From positions 1 to 11,276 of the forward strand of contig JAGBGV010000075.1 in assembly GCA_017935805.1 (NCBI GenBank): 11,276 nt of DNA, written 5' to 3'. The notes beneath the pieces were generated by a model. That model had not been told where the DNA came from and did not search any database. It was given only the letters and a program-made list of their open reading frames with translations. Shown here piece after piece: positions 360 to 10,819 of this stretch (its first letter is position 1; the number at the start of each line of letters is the position of its first letter). The translations under genes and the position numbers were made by a program. This stretch comes from Clostridia bacterium (GTDB lineage: Bacteria > Bacillota_A > Clostridia > Oscillospirales > CAG-272).

Positions 360-416
360 AAGTACGGAAATGATTAAAAAAATTGAATCATAATACAATA
401 CTTCAGGAGATTTTCT

Positions 417-1613
417 ATGAGCGCAGACATTTTTGAAAAATGCAGAAAACGTTCCCGAGTAGACGAGGCAAAAGAGAAGGGTATATACCCTTATTTCCAT
501 GCACTTGAGACAAGACAGGACGTAGAGGTGGTTATGGAAGGCAAGCGTCGCATTATGCTTGGCTCTAACAACTACCTTGGTCTTACCACCAACCCGGAGA
601 TCATGGAAGCGGGCATCAAGGCTATTGAGCAGTACGGCACAGGTTGCTCAGGCTCACGTTTTCTCAACGGTACGCTGAAGATGCACCTTGAACTTGAAGA
701 AGAACTTGCCGAATTTGTTCGAAAGGAAGCGGTAATGACCTTCTCCACAGGCTTCCAGTCCAACCTTGGTATTATCAGTGCCCTTGTGGGTATTCATGAT
801 TACGTCATTTGCGACAGAGAAAACCATGCATCAATATACGACGGATGCAGACTTGGATTCGGTAAGCTGCTCATGTATAAGCACTCCGATATGGAGGACC
901 TTGAAAGACTTCTCCAGAAGGTGCCGGACACAAGAGGCTGCCTGATCGTTACCGACGGTGTGTTCTCCATGGGCGGTGATATTGCAAAGCTGCCGGAGAT
1001 CTGCGCACTGGCTGAAAAATACGGCGCAAGAGTCATGGTAGACGATGCTCACGCTCTCGGTGTTATCGGTGAGGGCGGTCGCGGTACTGCAAGTCATTTC
1101 GGACTTGAGGATAAGGTTGACATTTACATGGGAACATTCTCAAAGTCTCTCGCATCTCTTGGCGGCTATATGGCGGCATCCCGAGAGGTTGTGGAATATG
1201 TTAAGCACGTTTCCCGTCCTTTCATCTTCTCCGCATCTATTACCCCCGCATCCGCTGCAGTTGCCCTTGCATCACTTCGCCATCTGAAGAGCCATCCCGA
1301 GATCGTTAAGAACCTTGCGGACATCAGCGCATACTTCAGAAAATGCCTGCATGAGCGCAATGTAAAGATCATTGATGCGGACACTCCCATAGTGCCCATA
1401 TATACATACACCGAAGAGAATACCTTCATCCGCGCGCGCATGATGTATGAAGCGGGAGTTTATCTTAACCCTGTTATCACACCTGCCTGTGCTGAGGGTG
1501 AATGCCTGCTCCGTGCGACTTGCATGGCAACACATACAAAGGCGCTGATCGATGAGGCATCCGATATTATTGCCGCAATGATCGACGCACCAGTGCCCGG
1601 ATATGAAAAATAA
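417..1613 (+). CDS. Alpha-oxoamine synthase, serine palmitoyltransferase-like
   Basis: This 398-residue PLP enzyme belongs to the fold-type I family that condenses an amino acid with an acyl thioester and releases CO2 (serine palmitoyltransferase, BioF, Kbl, ALAS). The PLP-binding lysine is K243 in GTFSKSLASLGG. The cofactor aspartate and partner histidine are D209 and H212 in VDDAHALG. The stacking histidine is H137 in ENHASIYDG, and SGSRFLNGT (78-86) forms the entry loop. R366 in LLRATC sits where the substrate-carboxylate arginine is expected. Length is normal for soluble bacterial homodimers. From memory, HASIYDG, FSTGF, YPYF near the N-terminus and the NPVITPAC...MATHTK tail match Bacteroides and Sphingomonas serine palmitoyltransferases better than BioF or Kbl. 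No other biotin gene and no threonine dehydrogenase lies nearby. The overlapping SDR supports a ketosphinganine pathway by context. Family is certain; substrate is inferred. Confidence 0.8.
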   Translation: MSADIFEKCRKRSRVDEAKEKGIYPYFHALETRQDVEVVMEGKRRIMLGSNNYLGLTTNPEIMEAGIKAIEQYGTGCSGSRFLNGTLKMHLELEEELAEFVRKEAVMTFSTGFQSNLGIISALVGIHDYVICDRENHASIYDGCRLGFGKLLMYKHSDMEDLERLLQKVPDTRGCLIVTDGVFSMGGDIAKLPEICALAEKYGARVMVDDAHALGVIGEGGRGTASHFGLEDKVDIYMGTFSKSLASLGGYMAASREVVEYVKHVSRPFIFSASITPASAAVALASLRHLKSHPEIVKNLADISAYFRKCLHERNVKIIDADTPIVPIYTYTEENTFIRARMMYEAGVYLNPVITPACAEGECLLRATCMATHTKALIDEASDIIAAMIDAPVPGYEK

Positions 1614-2397
1614 GGTAATTCTTATAACAGGAGGCAGCTCCGGTATCGGTAAAGCGGCTGCGGAGGCACTTCTTGCCCGTGGATGCACCGTTTATGAGGG
1701 TAGCCGTCGGGTCAGCAACATTCCCGGTGTGACTCATCTTCACCTTGATGTGACGGATGAGTGCTCTGCGAGGGAAGCGGTAAACGAGGTTGTAGCGCGT
1801 GAGGGCAGGATAGATGTTCTCATCAACTGCGCCGGTGCAGGGATCTCCGGGGCTGTGGAATTCACCGAGCATGATAGAGTCCTTTGGCAGCTTGACGTAC
1901 TTTTCATGGGGGTAGACAACATGACAAGAGCTGCACTGCCTCATATGAGACTGGCGGGCGGCGGAAGAATCGTCAACATCAGCTCCGTTGCGGCGGAATT
2001 TCCCATCCCGTTTCAGACATATTACTCCGCATCGAAGGCGGCAGTCAACGCTTATTCTGCCTCTCTTGCCAACGAGGTACGCCCGTTTGGGATCACGGTG
2101 ACTGCGGTACAGCCGGGAGACATCAAAACAGGATTTACTGCGACAAGAGCGAAATCAGCCGCAGGTGATGATGTATACGGCGGCAGGATAGCCCGAAGCG
2201 TGGAGCGAATGGAAAAGGATGAGCAAAACGGAATGAAGCCGGAGGCGGCAGGCAAAGCCATCGCCCGAATTGCCATGAAGCGGAGGGTGAAGCCGCTATA
2301 CACCATAGGAATCTCCTATCAGCTTCTCGGAATAGTCAAAAGGATACTTCCGTGTGCTCTTGTAAACCGACTTGTCGGTATGATATACGGAAAGTGA
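1603..2397 (+). CDS. Short-chain dehydrogenase, candidate 3-ketosphinganine reductase
   Basis: This 264-residue classical SDR has the cofactor motif TGGSSGIG (9-16), NCAG at 75-78, Ser128 and the Y141-x3-K145 pair. Basic residues after the second beta strand (SRR, 34-36) favour NADPH over NADH. The catalytic-tetrad Asn, normally in a V-N-x-x-G motif, is replaced by Leu100 in VLFMG, which is unusual. The C-terminal 30 residues are hydrophobic and basic (YQLLGIVKRILP and on) and could touch membrane or lipid. The ATG at 1603 lies inside the 3' end of the preceding gene, and the 11-base overlap implies translational coupling. Reduction of the 3-keto product of the upstream synthase is the natural role, but it is inferred from context. 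A generic alcohol or ketone reductase is the alternative. Confidence 0.8.
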   Translation: MKNKVILITGGSSGIGKAAAEALLARGCTVYEGSRRVSNIPGVTHLHLDVTDECSAREAVNEVVAREGRIDVLINCAGAGISGAVEFTEHDRVLWQLDVLFMGVDNMTRAALPHMRLAGGGRIVNISSVAAEFPIPFQTYYSASKAAVNAYSASLANEVRPFGITVTAVQPGDIKTGFTATRAKSAAGDDVYGGRIARSVERMEKDEQNGMKPEAAGKAIARIAMKRRVKPLYTIGISYQLLGIVKRILPCALVNRLVGMIYGK

Positions 2398-3044: not shown

Positions 3045-3073
3045 AGTATATCATATATTTGTTAAGTTGTCTA
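3045..3073 (-). promoter_or_regulatory. Promoter of the NTF2-like gene with adjacent palindrome
   Basis: Read on the minus strand, TAGACA (3068-3073) is followed after 17 bases by TATACT (3045-3050). Transcription would begin near 3038, about 40 bases before the ATG. The perfect palindrome ACTAA-ATA-TTAGT (3035-3047) overlaps the downstream edge of the -10 box and the start point, where a repressor could bind. Confidence 0.6.
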
Positions 3074-3121
3074 CCTAGCCAGATGAATAATGCCAGATTG
3101 TTGTTGCAGGGGAAGTGCATC

Positions 3122-3156
3122 AAAAAAGCCTTACTTTACAGTAGGGCTTTTCTTTA
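3122..3156. terminator. Bidirectional terminator-like hairpin upstream of the ceramidase-like gene
   Basis: AAGCCTTACT (3126-3135), loop TTAC, and AGTAGGGCTT (3140-3149) form a ten-base-pair stem with T tracts on both strands. It lies between two divergently oriented promoters and follows no gene on either strand. It may insulate the two units, or be left over from a gene lost from this spot. Apart from this hairpin and the promoters, the gap 3000-3259 holds no gene I can support. Confidence 0.6.
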
Positions 3157-3185
3157 TATTCTAAAGCTGTTTTTTCAAAAATCAC

Positions 3186-3214
3186 TTGACTCGAACGGAT
3201 GGGTGGTGTATAGT
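3186..3214 (+). promoter_or_regulatory. Sigma-A-type promoter for the ceramidase-like/GH operon
   Basis: TTGACT (3186-3191), a 17-base spacer and TATAGT (3209-3214) give a strong promoter. The expected start near 3221 leaves a leader of about 40 bases before the ATG at 3260. This placement shows that the open frame extending back to 3059 is not translated. Confidence 0.8.
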
Positions 3215-3248
3215 TGTAATATGAAAAAATCGAGCATCAACCTCGGTG

Positions 3249-3254
3249 AGGAGG
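3249..3254 (+). promoter_or_regulatory. Ribosome binding site fixing the start at 3260
   Basis: A perfect AGGAGG lies five bases before ATG 3260. An earlier in-frame ATG at 3221 falls at the predicted transcription start and has no such site. The protein begins MKIGFGVADITP, which is where this family normally begins. Confidence 0.8.
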
Positions 3255-3259
3255 AGCAC

Positions 3260-4657
3260 ATGAAGATAGGATTTGGAGTTGCCGACATTACTCCGGCGGG
3301 CAAGGTTGCGCTGCAGGGACAGTTCAACGTTCGTATAGCTGACGGCATCCATTCAAGATTATATACCACAGCTATGGCGGTGGAAACAGAGGGCAAGGTG
3401 ACTGTATGGGCATCCGTTGACCTGCTCCACATTATGCCGCCTGTGCCTGAAATGGCAGCGGAGCGGATCAGCAGAGTATTGCCCGGCTTTACGAAGGACG
3501 ACCTTGCTGTATCCGCCACACACACTCACACAGCCCCGTATGTTGGTAGAGAGCAGGAATGTATGCTTTGCTCATTCAAGGCGGAGGAGAAGCTGTACAA
3601 CGATCTGACGACGCCTGAGGAGTACGCTGAGCTTGTGGCTGATAAAATAGCCGAGGCGGCGCTTTCTGCTGTCTCGTCAATGGAGGAGTGCTATACAGAG
3701 GTGGCGGTGTCACGAATGACCACGTCATATTCTCGCCGCACGGTGTACAAGGACGGTCACGCAGTCATGTACGGCTCAACTCATGAGGACGATTTCCTCC
3801 GAATGGAGAATCACGACAGCGGTCCGTCAAGCTTCCTTTATGCATGGCGGTTGTCTGACGGGGAGCTCGTCGGTATTCTGGCAAATGTTCCTTGTCCCGC
3901 GCAGATTATTGAGAATCAGTGTGTTGTCTCCTCTGACTTCTGGGGATACGCACGGGATTACATAAAAACTCACCTTGGCAACGTGCCTCTTCTGCCGATT
4001 ACAGGCTCTGCAGGGGATCTCTCACCACGAGACCTGCTTGTAACTATCCCCGGTGAGAAAAGCATGTGGGATGAAGAGGGCTGCCGCGATCTCGGAGAGA
4101 AGATTGCTCGCGAGATCATCAGACTGAAAGACGCACCCCTTTACCGCCACAGCGGTGAGGCGTATCACATGGTGAAGCACGTTCCACTGCCAATTTGGAA
4201 TCCCACGGATGAGGAATTTGAGAAAGCACAGGCTGACATGGCCGGATTTATGAAAAAGTACGGCAAAAAAGACGGCGAGATCATCATATTCGAGGAGACT
4301 GACGGCACAGACGTGTTCGAGCTTTGCAGTGCTGACACAATAATCGGACGGCAGAAGCGTGGCAGAGTGACCGTTGACGGTTCAGTACACCTTTTGCGGC
4401 TCGGAAATGCGGTTCTGCTGTCCAACCCCTTTGAACTGTTCGTTGAATATGCTGACAGGATCAAGGCGGCATGCCCTGATGCTCATATTTTCGACGTGCA
4501 GATGACGGACGACGACCTGAACTACCTGCCTACCCCTTGGGCAATGAAGGCAGGCGGCTACAGCGCGGTGATATTTGCCTGCCAGTGTGCCGCTGATGCA
4601 GGTGAGCTGCTTGTCCGCGAGAGCATAAACGCAGTACGAGAGATAATGAGTAAGTAA
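3260..4657 (+). CDS. Neutral/alkaline ceramidase-fold hydrolase, cytosolic
   Basis: This 465-residue protein has the N-terminal domain of the neutral/alkaline non-lysosomal ceramidase family: VADITPAG (7-14), GIHSRLYTTAMAV, SVDLL and SATHTH (85-90). Neutral ceramidases are zinc amidases that release fatty acid from ceramide. Compared with the Pseudomonas enzyme as I recall it, the following align: first zinc His = H88, nucleophile Ser = S255 in AGDLSP, zinc Glu = E392 in NPFELF, zinc Tyr = Y422 in LNYLPT. The second zinc His (HPT motif) aligns with C212 in VPCPAQ, so the metal site differs. There is no signal peptide and no C-terminal immunoglobulin-like domain, unlike secreted ceramidases. 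It is co-transcribed with a glycoside hydrolase 18 bp downstream, which suggests an N-acyl or ester sugar substrate as much as ceramide. Fold is confident; substrate is open. Confidence 0.8.
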   Translation: MKIGFGVADITPAGKVALQGQFNVRIADGIHSRLYTTAMAVETEGKVTVWASVDLLHIMPPVPEMAAERISRVLPGFTKDDLAVSATHTHTAPYVGREQECMLCSFKAEEKLYNDLTTPEEYAELVADKIAEAALSAVSSMEECYTEVAVSRMTTSYSRRTVYKDGHAVMYGSTHEDDFLRMENHDSGPSSFLYAWRLSDGELVGILANVPCPAQIIENQCVVSSDFWGYARDYIKTHLGNVPLLPITGSAGDLSPRDLLVTIPGEKSMWDEEGCRDLGEKIAREIIRLKDAPLYRHSGEAYHMVKHVPLPIWNPTDEEFEKAQADMAGFMKKYGKKDGEIIIFEETDGTDVFELCSADTIIGRQKRGRVTVDGSVHLLRLGNAVLLSNPFELFVEYADRIKAACPDAHIFDVQMTDDDLNYLPTPWAMKAGGYSAVIFACQCAADAGELLVRESINAVREIMSK

Positions 4658-4675: not shown

Positions 4676-6646
4676 ATGTCAAGATATATTCCATTTCCCG
4701 CAGACCCGAACGACGCTCCCTTTGATATAAGTTTCATTTTTGAGGATGAGAAGCCTGCAGGCAAGCACGGTTTTCTTAAAGCAGACGGAGACAGATTCGT
4801 GTTCGAGGACGGCACGGTCGCAAGATTCTGGGGAACTAACGTAAACAGCGGTCACAACTTCCCCGACTACGATTACGCGGAAAAATTCGCTAAGCGCCTT
4901 GCAAAATTCGGCTGTAACATCGTCAGACTCCATCAGCTCGACGCAGAGTGGGCGACACCGAACATTTTCCAGTTCACTAAAGGTCCTCACCAGAAGAACA
5001 CACAGACCTTTGACCCCGAGAGCATGAGACGGCTGGACTATCTCATCTACTGCCTCAAGGAAGAGGGTATCTACGTTTACATGGACATGTACACCTACCG
5101 CAAGTTCAAGACAGGGGATGGAGTTGAGAACGCGTTCCTGCTCAAGGACGGCGGCAAGCCTTACAACTACTTCGCGCCTCGCCTTGTTGAGCTGCAGAAG
5201 AAGCTGGCGTATGATCTGTGGAATCATGTTAACGAGTTCACGGGAGTGGCATACAAGGACGAGCCTGCTATCGTGCTTGCAGAGATCGTCAACGAGAGTG
5301 ATTTCTCCATTTACAAGATAGACATTGAGCCTTACGCAACTATTTACCGCGACATGCTTGACAAGTGGGCAAAGGAAAACGGCATGGACATTGATGCATA
5401 CACCTGCAACATCAACGATTTCGATGATCCCATTCAGTCCGCGTTCCGAGTAAAGCTGCAAGAGGACCACTACATTGACATGATGAACTGCCTCCGGGAG
5501 ATCGGGGTGAAAATTCCCATCTGCGGCACAAACTGGGCAGTTACAAACGAGCAGAGAAAGCCCAACAACGTGTGCGATTTCAACGACAGCCACTTCTATT
5601 TCTACGATTGGCGTTGGAATCCGGGGGATCAGCGCTTCCTCAATACTGCACTTACACAAGCACCCGACGGATTCCTTCATCACATGGCGGCGGCTCGCTC
5701 CTTCGGCAGACCCATGTTCTGCTCCGAGTGGGATCTGCCATGGCCTAACGAGTACAGAGCAGAGTCTCCTGTCCTCTTCGCTGCGGCAGGACTGCTTCAG
5801 GGCTGGTCAGGCTTTGCTATTCACACATATGCTTACTCATCTCACCTTGAGAGGATGACCATGCTCGGCAAGGAGATCAGCGCGGAATCCATTGGCGGCA
5901 CAGCTTACCGCGAGGGTATCTTCTCCACCTGGAACGACCCCGCAAAGTTCGGTCTGTTCTATCATGCGGCACTTATCACCAGACGCGGGGACGTAAAGGA
6001 ATCTCCAAACACCACAGCAATGAAGGCGCTGACCATGAACACCTGCCCCTTTGATGAGCTTTCCGCTGTGTCCGAGTACACAAAGATCGGAATGGAATAC
6101 GAGCCCGGTGAGTCTACGGCTGACCGCGTGATCGACGAGAAAACTTGCCTTGTGGATCTCTCAAAGAAGGAGGTCCGCTCCGATACAGGGGAGATGTACC
6201 GCAACTGGGACAAGAACTACGGCACCATCGACACACCCAGATCCAAGTGCATTTACGGATTCCTGGAAAAGAACGGCAAGATTGAAATAGACGGCTTATC
6301 CGTTCAGGGCAAGACTGATTTCTCCGTTATCGCTGTTTCCTCTCTGTCCGACGAGGCGCTTGACAAGTGTGACAACATGCTGCTCACCGCTGTAGGCAGA
6401 GCAAAGAATACTGACGCTAAGTTTGACGGAGACCTGATGCTTGAATACGGAAAGGCCCCCATTACGGTTGAGGTTATTGAGGCTGATATCGAGATCCGCA
6501 CATCCTGTCCCACCATGAGAGTATGGGCGGTAAGTGCAGAGGGCTTCTACATCGGTGCGCTTCCCACTACTTACGAAAACGGCGTCCTCCGCTTCACTAT
6601 CGGCAAGGATTACCCGTCCATGTATTACCACATAAGAGAAGAATAA
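4676..6646 (+). CDS. Clan GH-A (GH5-like) glycoside hydrolase, intracellular
   Basis: This 656-residue protein has a (beta/alpha)8-barrel glycosidase domain over roughly residues 30-400. FWGTNVNSGHN (51-61) and NIVRLHQLD (81-89) are early barrel strands. The acid/base is E207 in LAEIVNESD, the Asn-Glu signature of clan GH-A after strand 4. The likely nucleophile is E351 in FCSEWDLP on strand 7. A beta-rich tail (about 470-656) probably packs against the barrel. No signal peptide, carbohydrate-binding module or dockerin is visible, so it acts inside the cell on imported oligosaccharides. The ribosome site AAAGGAG (4661-4667) precedes the ATG. The spacing from the ceramidase-like gene shows one operon. 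It resembles proteins annotated as cellulase-family hydrolases, but the exact family and linkage specificity cannot be told. Confidence 0.75.
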   Translation: MSRYIPFPADPNDAPFDISFIFEDEKPAGKHGFLKADGDRFVFEDGTVARFWGTNVNSGHNFPDYDYAEKFAKRLAKFGCNIVRLHQLDAEWATPNIFQFTKGPHQKNTQTFDPESMRRLDYLIYCLKEEGIYVYMDMYTYRKFKTGDGVENAFLLKDGGKPYNYFAPRLVELQKKLAYDLWNHVNEFTGVAYKDEPAIVLAEIVNESDFSIYKIDIEPYATIYRDMLDKWAKENGMDIDAYTCNINDFDDPIQSAFRVKLQEDHYIDMMNCLREIGVKIPICGTNWAVTNEQRKPNNVCDFNDSHFYFYDWRWNPGDQRFLNTALTQAPDGFLHHMAAARSFGRPMFCSEWDLPWPNEYRAESPVLFAAAGLLQGWSGFAIHTYAYSSHLERMTMLGKEISAESIGGTAYREGIFSTWNDPAKFGLFYHAALITRRGDVKESPNTTAMKALTMNTCPFDELSAVSEYTKIGMEYEPGESTADRVIDEKTCLVDLSKKEVRSDTGEMYRNWDKNYGTIDTPRSKCIYGFLEKNGKIEIDGLSVQGKTDFSVIAVSSLSDEALDKCDNMLLTAVGRAKNTDAKFDGDLMLEYGKAPITVEVIEADIEIRTSCPTMRVWAVSAEGFYIGALPTTYENGVLRFTIGKDYPSMYYHIREE

Positions 6647-6690: not shown

Positions 6691-8019
6691 TCAGAATATC
6701 TTGCGCTTTGAATCCTTCGGGAGTCTTATTGTCCAGCTTTGGAGACGGCATCTGTCGGAGATATATTCATCCTTGAAGGAGTCGGAATGTACCCACCAGC
6801 CTGCAAGACGCTGATTGCGCAGGGTTGGGAATTCGTTCAGGTCTATCTGCCACTTGTCAGGCACAACTGTGAACTCGCGCTCGCCGGAAAGGATCGCAAG
6901 TGCGGCACGGAGCCAATCTGCGGGACCCAGCTTTTTGCCGCCAACTGTGATCTCTGTGGGAAGGAAGGTGCCGTCGGGTATCTGATTTGCGGACTCGCGC
7001 ATCTCGTCTGCTGTAACTCTTACAGGGTGGGGGATAGCGTAGGGAACATCAAGGAATCCGAACACCTTTCCGCATACGTGCTCCTCTTTTCCCTGCAAAA
7101 AGTCGCGGCAGGCAAGGAGAATGTCACTGATACACAGGGATTCGGGTGTTGTTACCGGGAAGAAGTCATCGCAAAGCGCTTTTCTCAGCTCAGGTATCAT
7201 GTCCGGAGTAATAACTCTGTGAGAGCGAAGCTTATCCGCAAGAGCGTTGTATGTAGTGACGTTGAAGCGGTCATCCGCCTTGATCTTTTCCAGGAAGAAA
7301 CGCAGATTTTCTTCAAAGCGTTCAACTTCTTCCTCAGTACACAGATCGCTTTTCACCCACTCGCCCTGATTGTTTTCCTTGTAGAAGTTCTGTCTGTCGG
7401 TAAATGTGGTGACAACGTGCATCTGCGGGTGATGCAGACATATGCATACGTCAAGCTCCGCCATTTCTTCAATAAGCTTAAGAACATCATCCTTTGAGCA
7501 TTTTCCGAAATTATCGTAGCAGGATTTCAGCAGAATATTCCAAAGATTGCAGAAGGATACCGGTCTTGAGCGGACTATATCATGTGTGAGTCCACCCTCA
7601 AAGATCTCAACTCCCATATCTGCGTAACCGTACAGTGCTACATAAGAGTCTGATACGCCGGGAGGGGATGCGGCTCCGATGCGATGTTCACCGAGGATAC
7701 GCTTCAGAATATCAAAGCACTCGTCTTCTTCTTTTCGGAAGTGCTTCATTGCCTCGTCAAAGTCCTCGATATCTGTGTATTCGTTTATTGTCGGGTGAAA
7801 TGAATGCTTGAGAGAGTGGGTGTGTATTTCGCACTTCTTCAGCTCCTCGATGCAGTCTGTTCTGCCCCATTTTTGGAGAGCCTCTGCAAGCCAACCCACA
7901 ACATTGTGGCATGGTGTGAAGCCTGCCTCGCGTATGATTTTTGAAGCTCTGACTATTCCGTCAGCTCCTTTTTCGTTGACATAGTCTTCTGTATCAAAGG
8001 TAAAGATAAGGTCTGTCAT
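6691..8019 (-). CDS. NodB-like polysaccharide deacetylase-fold protein with repeated C-terminal domain
   Basis: This 442-residue protein starts with FTFDTED (6-12), the metal-binding aspartate motif of NodB-type deacetylases. It then has HSLKH (68-72), which fits the HSxxH metal motif, and LHHPQMH (195-201), which fits the later LxH motif. The domain spans about 1-265; these enzymes remove N- or O-acetyl groups from glycans. The C-terminal part carries two related segments, DFFPVTTPES...DILLACRDFL (285-308) and GTFLPTEITVGG...DWLRAALAIL (350-377). The second resembles pseudomurein-binding repeats. No signal peptide is seen, so the protein is probably cytosolic. The ribosome site AAGGAGGA (minus strand, 8026-8033) precedes the ATG. 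It lies 92 bp downstream of the isomerase gene and is probably co-transcribed with it. Catalytic activity and acetylated substrate are inferred. Confidence 0.65.
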   Translation of the reverse strand: MTDLIFTFDTEDYVNEKGADGIVRASKIIREAGFTPCHNVVGWLAEALQKWGRTDCIEELKKCEIHTHSLKHSFHPTINEYTDIEDFDEAMKHFRKEEDECFDILKRILGEHRIGAASPPGVSDSYVALYGYADMGVEIFEGGLTHDIVRSRPVSFCNLWNILLKSCYDNFGKCSKDDVLKLIEEMAELDVCICLHHPQMHVVTTFTDRQNFYKENNQGEWVKSDLCTEEEVERFEENLRFFLEKIKADDRFNVTTYNALADKLRSHRVITPDMIPELRKALCDDFFPVTTPESLCISDILLACRDFLQGKEEHVCGKVFGFLDVPYAIPHPVRVTADEMRESANQIPDGTFLPTEITVGGKKLGPADWLRAALAILSGEREFTVVPDKWQIDLNEFPTLRNQRLAGWWVHSDSFKDEYISDRCRLQSWTIRLPKDSKRKIF

Positions 8020-9117: not shown

Positions 9118-9738
9118 TCAGGTGTTCTTCATGATGATCGAGCCGATGCAGTCGCTGACGTGCTCGCAAGCATCTGCACATTCCTCGAGACAGTCGAAGA
9201 TGTTGTACCAGCACAGCTTGTCATGGGTATTAAGAGAGCCCATTGTGATGCTGCGCATAGCAGTTATGTAAAGCTTGTCACATTCCTCTTCAACATCGTT
9301 ACATTCGATAATAAGAGAACGGATCTTCTTGGACTTTTTGAAGTTGCTGAATTCGCCCATTATGGAGCACAAAAGATCACATCCGCGAACGAGATTCTTG
9401 GCATATTCAACAGCGGCAGCTTCGACAGCCTTGATATCGTAGATATACATCTTCTGGAGAACCTCCTCCATAATATCGAGAACGTTGTCAAGCTGGTAGC
9501 TCATCATATCAAGATCTTCGCGGTCAACGGGGGTTACAAAGGCTTTAGCCAACGCTTCACCCATTTCGTGCTTCTTCTTGTCAGCGCTGTGTTCAATGGA
9601 ATGCATCTTATTAAGCATTTCTTCAAGCTTATCTGCATCGTAATTTTCAAGGCAGAAAACAAGATACTCTGCCGCCTGCTTGGAAAGTGAAGCACATTCC
9701 ATGAAATTATCAAAATAGAATTTATCGCCTTTAGCCAT
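9118..9738 (-). CDS. DUF47/PhoU-like accessory protein of PiT transporter
   Basis: This 206-residue all-helical protein is of the DUF47 (PhoU-divergent) family, at the usual length. Acidic metal-binding motifs characteristic of PhoU folds are visible: HSIEHSADKKKHEM (46-59), PVDREDLDMMSYQLDNVLD (70-88), NDVEEECDKLY (147-157) and DCLEECADACEHVSD (182-196). Such proteins are cytosolic partners that are thought to regulate or support low-affinity PiT phosphate transport. The gene follows the PiT gene with a 31-bp gap and an AAAGGA ribosome site. That PiT-then-DUF47 order is the typical two-gene unit. No Pho-box-like repeat was recognised. Confidence 0.9.
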   Translation of the reverse strand: MAKGDKFYFDNFMECASLSKQAAEYLVFCLENYDADKLEEMLNKMHSIEHSADKKKHEMGEALAKAFVTPVDREDLDMMSYQLDNVLDIMEEVLQKMYIYDIKAVEAAAVEYAKNLVRGCDLLCSIMGEFSNFKKSKKIRSLIIECNDVEEECDKLYITAMRSITMGSLNTHDKLCWYNIFDCLEECADACEHVSDCIGSIIMKNT

Positions 9739-9769
9739 CGTTATAATTCCTTTCCGTTATGTAGTGTGT

Positions 9770-10819
9770 TTAAGCAAATATCATAATAAACAGCTTTGTC
9801 ATGAGGAAACCGATAAGACCGCAACCGGGGAAGGTAAGCACCCATGTGAGCACCATTTCCTTTACAACGCCGAAGTTGATTGCGGAAACACGCTTTACTG
9901 CACCAACGCCCATGATGGAAGTGGTCTTTGCGTGTGTAGTTGAAACGGGGAGGCTGAGCAGGGAGCAAATAAGACGTGAGGTGGAAGCGGCAAGGTCTGC
10001 AGAGAAGCCCTGGTATTTTTCCAGCTTAACCATATCCATACCGACGGATTTGATGATCTTTTTGCCGCCCATTGCTGTTCCGAGTGCCATGATGACCGAG
10101 CAGAGGATCATGATCCAATGAGCGGGCTGCATGTTCTGGGGGATAGGCTCACCGTTTGACATATACAGGCAAAGGATGATAATACCCATGAACTTCTGCC
10201 CGTCCTGTGCACCGTGCATGAATGCAGAATAGGCAGCACCTGCGATCTGTGCACCACGGAAGAAGGGCTCTGTTTTCGGGCGGTTTGCTTTTCTGAACAG
10301 GAGGGTTGTCAGCTTGCAGGTGATCCAACCGAGACCGAATCCGAGCACTACGGAAATACCGATTCCGTATACTACCTTGACCCATTCGTTCGGGTTTACG
10401 CCGCTGAGGCTGTTGTTTATTGCGATTGCACTACCGGTGAGGCCGGCAATGAGTGCATGGCTTTCGCTGGTGGGGATACCGAATACCCATGCCAGTGTCG
10501 CCCAGAGAACGATCGCAAAGAGCGCGGCACTGAGAGCTATAACTGCCATGTCGGGATCATCTCCGAAATCCACCATCTTGGTGATCGTTTCAGCAACGGT
10601 TGCGTTCAAGAGCGTCATTACGAAAACGCCGAGGAAATTGAACACCGCAGCCATAAGGATAGCCGCTTTAGGTGGCATACATCTTGTAACTACGCAGGTT
10701 GCAATGGCGTTTGGAGCATCTGTCCATCCGTTTACAAGGATAACGCCGAGAGTCAGCATTACCGCAAGGAACAGAAGGGGATTTGCCGTCATTTGATTCC
10801 AAAAATATAAGATATCCAT
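9770..10819 (-). CDS. pit: PiT family inorganic phosphate transporter
   Basis: This 349-residue polytopic membrane protein has the inverted-repeat PiT architecture. The first half has GWTDAPNAIATCV (31-43) and GIPTSESHALIAG (114-126). The second half has HGAQDGQKFMG (202-212) and LPVSTTHAKTTSIMGVGA (290-307), the paired phosphate- and cation-binding signatures. About ten hydrophobic segments are apparent. PiT proteins move inorganic phosphate, as a metal-phosphate complex with protons or with sodium, into the cell. Length suits the compact bacterial form without a large central loop. GGGAAGG precedes the ATG by five bases. The gene upstream is a component of a sodium-exporting pump, so sodium coupling is possible, but the sequence does not decide this. 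Confidence 0.92.
   Translation of the reverse strand: MDILYFWNQMTANPLLFLAVMLTLGVILVNGWTDAPNAIATCVVTRCMPPKAAILMAAVFNFLGVFVMTLLNATVAETITKMVDFGDDPDMAVIALSAALFAIVLWATLAWVFGIPTSESHALIAGLTGSAIAINNSLSGVNPNEWVKVVYGIGISVVLGFGLGWITCKLTTLLFRKANRPKTEPFFRGAQIAGAAYSAFMHGAQDGQKFMGIIILCLYMSNGEPIPQNMQPAHWIMILCSVIMALGTAMGGKKIIKSVGMDMVKLEKYQGFSADLAASTSRLICSLLSLPVSTTHAKTTSIMGVGAVKRVSAINFGVVKEMVLTWVLTFPGCGLIGFLMTKLFIMIFA

Follow-up and report, generated by a model that had tools for sequence, protein, structure and literature searches.

Proposed long-chain base synthesis by a two-gene unit in Clostridia

We analyzed an 11,276-bp stretch of DNA (the window), contig JAGBGV010000075.1 of the Clostridia bacterium assembly GCA_017935805.1, in which a gene for an alpha-oxoamine synthase resembling serine palmitoyltransferase (SPT, 417-1613) overlaps a gene for a classical short-chain dehydrogenase/reductase (SDR, 1603-2397). 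We propose, at a probability of about 0.75, that this overlapping pair acts as one unit in the synthesis of a long-chain base of the sphingoid type. What the comparisons below show is the homology and clade of the proteins, their active-site residues, and the linkage and co-occurrence of the genes; the use of serine as the amino acid and of a long-chain acyl donor (coenzyme A (CoA) or acyl carrier protein (ACP) thioester), the reduction step and translational coupling are inferred. The SPT-SDR interpretation that an earlier sequence-only reading of the region had put forward largely holds.

In the proposed route, serine would form an external aldimine with pyridoxal 5'-phosphate (PLP) on K243 of the 417-1613 product, and a decarboxylative Claisen condensation of L-serine with a long-chain acyl thioester would follow, with loss of CO2, to give a 3-keto long-chain base of the 3-ketosphinganine type. 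The SDR, probably with NADPH, would reduce the ketone to a sphinganine-type amino alcohol. The gene overlap would serve to match the amounts of the two proteins and to avoid accumulation of the ketone.

The condensing enzyme groups with serine palmitoyltransferases

The 398-residue product of 417-1613 is, by its sequence, an SPT-branch alpha-oxoamine synthase. Its highest NCBIfam score was with the SPT (CFB) model (527 bits), followed by TIGR01825 (390), glycine C-acetyltransferase (385), SPT (beta) (374), BioF (365), SPT (alpha) (310) and ALAS (272). The Kbl-type proteins L130, L141, L142 and L146 reached only 324-363 on the SPT model but 632-700 on the two glycine C-acetyltransferase models. 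Identities of the window protein, measured in a 141-protein alignment, were 50.0% to the Sphingobacterium multivorum SPT, 38.6% to the Sphingomonas SPT, 33.8% to both SulA and Escherichia coli Kbl, and 29.3% to E. coli BioF. HMMER aligned it without gaps to the solved S. multivorum enzyme (PDB 3a2b, 8guh), which was also its top structural match.

Related loci (77) were retrieved with the window protein and are hence biased to its kin; 72 rows of the alignment are called clostridial here, a set that omits L048, L065, L071 and L074 and includes L047. The truncated L077 and the badly extracted L129 were left out of alignment and trees. The residues K243 (the PLP lysine), D209, H137 and R366, to which the sequence-only reading had pointed, are present and, like H212, invariant in 72/72 clostridial rows. 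All eight positions checked (N51, S110, H137, D209, H212, K243, A273 and R366) are identical to those of the S. multivorum SPT.

Maximum-likelihood trees of 86 and 41 rows, hand-picked from the 141, agreed with each other, the 41-row tree being the more careful. In the latter, the clostridial proteins formed a single clade (98/100) and fell with the Bacteroidota SPT-like proteins and both reference SPTs on the same side of a branch (96/94), with Kbl, BioF, TIGR01825 and SulA outside; the 86-row tree concurred (Shimodaira-Hasegawa-like approximate likelihood ratio test, 92). The phylogeny that had been suggested as a check thus put the 398-residue protein on the SPT side, outside Kbl and BioF. 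The deep order of the tree is uncertain: branches are long for the Sphingomonas SPT and for the BioF rows, which did not form a monophyletic group, and the reference labels were only partly scored. Family labels were backed by model scores or PDB matches for L130, L136, L141-L143, L146, L150, L153 and L154, came from annotation for the E. coli proteins L127 and L128, and were assigned from identity and tree alone for L137, L131, L132 and L147 (TIGR01825, Kbl), L149 and L151 (BioF) and L152 (SulA). L148 was called SulA by its tree position, its best model being NF047600 (313 bits).

Position 273 of the window protein corresponds to Lys281 of SulA. It is Ala in 71 of the 72 clostridial rows (Thr in one), in 32/32 Bacteroidota SPT-like rows and in both reference SPTs; elsewhere it is Lys (SulA and L153), Asn (E. 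coli Kbl and L130), Thr (E. coli BioF) or Ser (L136). We consider it extremely improbable that the enzyme is a cysteate acyltransferase (SulA/CFAT) that starts sulfonolipid synthesis. SulA (PDB 7u7h) shares superfamily and fold with the window protein, and the sulfonolipid pathway also has an SDR step (3-ketocapnine reductase), but the identity is 34%, the lysine is replaced by Ala and the SulA clade is separate; residue 273 and the clade thus disfavour this reading.

A role as Kbl or BioF in ordinary threonine or biotin metabolism is very improbable as well. The fold family is the same and the E. coli enzymes are 34% and 29% identical, but the tree excludes the protein from both clades and position 273 is neither Asn nor Thr. 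The genome content points the same way. Sixteen of the 77 loci were traced to 16 related genomes, all of which carry the SPT-type protein; bioB was over its cut-off in none of them (0/16), compared with 7 of 14 control genomes, so that the biotin operon lacking bioF that would have spoken for a BioF role was not seen there. Four of the 16 (G006, G010, G011 and G012) have a second full-length synthase, each adjoining a threonine dehydrogenase (tdh) match; the Tdh cut-off (458 bits) is exceeded by one of these matches, the others reaching 427-457. The sole second synthase scored, L130 of G012, exceeds the Kbl cut-offs. The Kbl clade takes in L130, L131 and L132, whereas L129, from G010, was left unplaced. 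These synthases belong to the superfamily of the window SPT but are separate genes. No biotin or threonine-degradation gene, tdh included, was recognised within the window among NCBIfam and Pfam profile matches, in agreement with the sequence-only reading.

The choice of amino acid cannot be read from the sequence by itself, and there is a minor possibility that the enzyme, as a long-chain amino-ketone synthase within the SPT branch, prefers alanine or glycine over serine; its products would then be 1-deoxy or 1-deoxymethyl bases, to be reduced by the SDR. Position 110 (the Ser of 'FSTGF') varies among the 72 clostridial rows (Ser 57, Pro 12, Gly 3), and 1-deoxyceramides have been reported from bacteria in the accessible text of PMC11334938. 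Against this stands the identity of the eight checked positions with the S. multivorum SPT, although loop 356-359 differs, being PACA in the window protein and PAVP in the S. multivorum enzyme. The accessible text of PMC10865984 describes a PACA loop for Prevotella. We gave the loop no weight because its Cys occurs in only 19/72 clostridial and 0/32 Bacteroidota rows of the alignment. Serine remains the amino acid of the route that we favor.

The adjoining gene encodes a predicted NADPH-dependent reductase

The 264-residue product of 1603-2397 is, from its motifs, a classical SDR (TGGSSGIG at 9-16, S128, Y141 and K145), and G10, G14, G16, R35, S128, Y141 and K145 are invariant across 21 rows. 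Its best curated match was the 3-ketodihydrosphingosine reductase model NF049977 (KdsR) at 256 bits, with the next model at 219. R35 sits after the second strand; an arginine such as this points to NADPH, which is probably the cofactor. The AlphaFold2 model (predicted local distance difference test, 91.8) had an SDR from Streptomyces avermitilis as its top structural match by E-value; among the 50 rows listed, the highest query template-modeling score (0.90) was with human 17-beta-hydroxysteroid dehydrogenase type 1. This likeness of a predicted structure would fit a lipophilic ketone substrate and proves nothing.

The two genes are linked across many genomes

The 11-bp overlap noted in the sequence-only reading was recovered exactly, the two reading frames sharing 1603-1613. 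An SDR gene lies directly downstream and co-directional in 59 of the 77 related loci, and the frames overlap in 44 of the 58 pairs measured, with start codons picked by script. In 391 genomes drawn separately and evenly from the class, SPT was found in 47 at ≥52% identity (52 at E≤1e-100) and the SDR in 52 at E≤1e-45. The SDR was present in 38 of the 47 SPT genomes compared with 14 of the 344 others (Fisher p 1.8e-32, uncorrected for kinship). Thirty of the 38 pairs are adjacent, with the SDR downstream in 7, upstream in 4 and divergent in 19. Because the linkage recurs in different gene orders, it argues for a joint function of the two proteins. NF049977 matched in 53 of the 391 genomes at E≤1e-62, none over the cut-off. 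For the phylum to which G418 belongs, 6 of 148 genomes had a match. Among the nine SPT genomes without the SDR at E≤1e-45, five (G031, G207, G208, G268 and G337) match NF049977 at E≤1e-62, and the matching gene is divergent from SPT in G208 and G337.

All 18 of the 77 loci that lack a downstream SDR were traced into their genomes. Five (L029, L040, L067, L069 and L077) have an SDR of 45-56% identity elsewhere, the L077 locus being cut by a contig end. In L027, two alike SPT-SDR pairs lie in inverted order on the same contig, probably an assembly artefact.

Observations that weigh against the proposal

Several results count against a sphingoid-base unit and were set against the evidence above. 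The SPT-like protein, at 527 bits, is under the curated cut-off of 640 for NF047600 (SPT, CFB group) and is not filed as an equivalog member. The Bacteroidota SPT-branch proteins scored (L103, L117 and L139) fall short as well, with 491, 461 and 482, so the shortfall does not discriminate. The SDR, at 256 bits, is under the curated NF049977 cut-off of 400, and none of 24 SPT-carrying Bacteroidota genomes matched this model at E≤1e-60. It is consequently uncertain which characterised reductase stands behind NF049977, and, judging by these model matches, close orthology between the window SDR and the Bacteroides reductase BT_0972 is improbable. Twelve class genomes have the SDR and no SPT among the matches listed. 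Seven of the 18 exceptional loci (L002, L010, L018, L028, L043, L044 and L076) come from genomes with only a 36-39% identical SDR, and six (L003, L031, L048, L060, L071 and L074) from genomes with none at E≤1e-30. The annotated neighbours of the pair included no other recognisable sphingolipid gene.

The most telling exceptions are L002 (1003-2193) and L003 (5724-6941), two of the three closest relatives of the window, whose SPTs are 92% identical to that of the window and have no SDR beside them; L002 has only the 38% identical SDR in its genome, and L003 belongs to the six loci whose genomes have none. Either these metagenome-assembled genomes (MAGs) miss the SDR gene or the SPT can work without this SDR. 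The SDR is accordingly not needed beside, and perhaps not with, every close SPT, and these two loci lowered our confidence in the proposal from 0.78 to 0.75. They also bear on the reading in which the SPT product is not reduced by the adjoining SDR, which would have another job, the pairing reflecting something else. SDRs are promiscuous and the window SDR misses the cut-off of its model, but the co-occurrence and the adjacency in three gene orders oppose this reading, and an assembly gap could hide the SDR in two MAGs; we regard it as distinctly unlikely. The earlier view of the SDR as the partner of the SPT stands across many genomes, but not in all close relatives.

Carrier genomes

Record titles of the carriers name Oscillospiraceae, Lachnospiraceae, Ruminococcus, Parasporobacterium, Sporobacter and other Clostridia. 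Nearly all of the 77 loci are metagenome-assembled, many from ruminant, horse and deer guts. Contamination by Bacteroidota DNA is disfavoured by the separate clade of the clostridial proteins (98/100), by the CdaA-YbbR and Na+-pumping decarboxylase neighbours in L015 and L056, and by G208, in which a single contig of 2,974,379 bases, nearly the whole of the roughly 3.0-Mb genome, carries the SPT. Some record titles do not fit: Sutterella (L047), Kiritimatiellae (L048), Syntrophus (L065), Verrucomicrobia (L071) and Saprospiraceae (L074). L048 and L071 nest within the clostridial clade of the 86-row tree, by either transfer or mis-binning. LpxC was detected at E≤1e-10 in none of 61 SPT-bearing genomes and in both of two Bacteroidota controls, and the SPT-bearing Clostridia therefore probably lack lipid A.

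Locus anatomy and expression signals

Both genes start with ATG on the forward strand. A candidate sigma-70-like promoter, TTGACT (331-336) and TACAAT (354-359) separated by 17 nt, lies at 331-359 of the same strand and has 10 of 12 consensus matches; the reading frame upstream of 417-1613 stops at 189. The promoter of its own that the sequence-only reading had assigned to the pair is plausible on this match, but the five promoter-like sites in the region are no clear excess over shuffled sequences (3.3 +/- 1.8). A Shine-Dalgarno-like AGGAG was read in the sequence at 405-409 (forward strand), 7 nt 5' of the first ATG. A terminator-like hairpin on the forward strand at 2406-2430, a 10-pair stem followed by a T-rich tail 3' of the SDR gene, would mark the end of the two-gene unit; three terminator-like sites were found, compared with 1.9 +/- 1.3 for shuffles. 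These elements are to be taken as anatomy and not as proof. The 11-bp overlap suggests translational coupling of the two genes.

Neighbouring genes

The closest related locus, L001 from an Oscillospiraceae MAG, carries an SPT and an SDR 94% and 74% identical to those of the window, together with counterparts of the window genes 1-189 (94%), 3059-4657 (79%), 4676-6646 (93%) and 6691-8019 (88%). No longer conserved operon was found in the annotated loci: the genes 3' of the pair vary between lineages and include a c-di-AMP cyclase group, a Na+-pumping decarboxylase, EamA and nucleoside-gate proteins. It is highly unlikely, in our estimation, that the synthase is a condensing enzyme for a small secondary metabolite (an acyl amino-ketone signal or antibiotic) rather than for membrane lipids. 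The pair has no recognisable dedicated N-acyltransferase or head-group gene at its side, as such a role would allow, but the annotated neighbours are mostly ordinary metabolic and transport genes, differ by lineage and form no biosynthetic cluster. Nor was a ceramide synthase or other N-acylation gene recognised among the annotated neighbours, to which this search was confined, as no genome-wide search with a bCerS reference was made.

Within the window, the product of 3059-4657, whose listed TTG start is probably too far upstream, has a marginal Pfam match to the neutral/alkaline ceramidase N-terminal domain (33.1, cut-off 32.1) and no PDB relative at E≤0.001. A ceramidase-like gene near an SPT is suggestive; as a member of the unit it was set aside, given the marginal Pfam score, the lack of a PDB relative and its sharing with only L001 of the 77 loci. 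The large protein of 4676-6646 has a weak GH5 match below the Pfam cut-off. The 442-residue protein of 6691-8019, on the minus strand, matches neither a Pfam nor an NCBIfam family at E≤0.001 and is kept near the pair in L001. At 9118-10819 lies the ordinary combination of a DUF47/PhoU-like gene with a gene for a PHO4-family phosphate transporter.

In five loci of the divergent type, a gene for a Cys-rich protein of 170-190 residues lies directly 3' of the SDR gene (L156 5579-6100, L157 8766-9281, L164 8801-9355, L176 8504-9037 and L177 8912-9484). The L156 copy has no Pfam match; in those lineages the protein may belong to the unit as its third component. In L071 (1355-6542), titled Verrucomicrobia, UbiA, radical SAM and diacylglycerol-kinase-like genes come after an SPT of the clostridial type, and together they may make up a more extensive lipid cluster.

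Comparison with known systems and implications

The window protein resembles the S. multivorum SPT in identity, checked residues, side of the tree and structural match; it differs in its PACA loop, in the overlap of its gene with an SDR gene and in belonging to a class in which no LpxC was found. The Bacteroides and Prevotella pathway, as the accessible texts of PMC9278070 and PMC10865984 present it, likewise runs from an SPT (spt, BT_0870) to an SDR-type 3-ketosphinganine reductase (KDSR, BT_0972), a reduction step established in Bacteroides (PMC9278070), but BT_0870 and BT_0972 are far apart judging by their locus tags. The Caulobacter pathway of Spt, bCerS and CerR shares the type of its first enzyme; its periplasmic reductase is proposed, in the text available of PMC11087976, to act after N-acylation, whereas the window SDR gene directly follows the SPT gene.

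According to the portion of PMC12134224 available, which names Actinobacteria, the KDSR step is unusual in bacteria beyond Bacteroides and Prevotella. A Black Sea survey, in its accessible text, reports Spt-like genes from 38 phyla (PMC11334938); words that start with Firmicutes, Bacillota or Clostridi are absent from its main text. Placing the pair 'outside the usual phyla' is right for the producers named in the sequence-only reading, but with 38 phyla reported the taxonomic surprise is smaller than it implied. Gram-positive candidates are mentioned briefly in the available text of PMC11087976, and in that of PMC11211663 a human-microbiome survey gives a prevalence of ketocapnine-reductase homologs of 14.4% in Firmicutes and 12.3% in Firmicutes_A. 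The literature searched, which did not reach subscription papers and supplements, nowhere describes such a linked SPT-KDSR pair for Clostridia. The pair thus appears to consist of known enzyme types newly placed in an unexpected class that apparently lacks lipopolysaccharide (LPS).

As far as their accessible texts go, gut sphingolipid studies treat bacterial production as that of Bacteroidota (PMC10865984, PMC12816596), and one of them derived the abundance of Bacteroides spt from orthologous group COG0156 (PMC12816596), a superfamily that would also hold such clostridial genes. We lean, with some reserve, toward the view that a sizeable share of Clostridia (47 of the 391 sampled), with no lipid A gene found, make sphingoid bases by a linked SPT-reductase pair and are, in animal guts, a second large source of bacterial long-chain bases besides Bacteroidota, the bases being perhaps finished by an N-acylation unlike that of bCerS, or left free or in 1-deoxy form. 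If this is true, sphingolipid data from gut and rumen, like counts of the spt gene, would need re-reading, and the question would open as to what role these lipids have in a cell without an LPS outer membrane.

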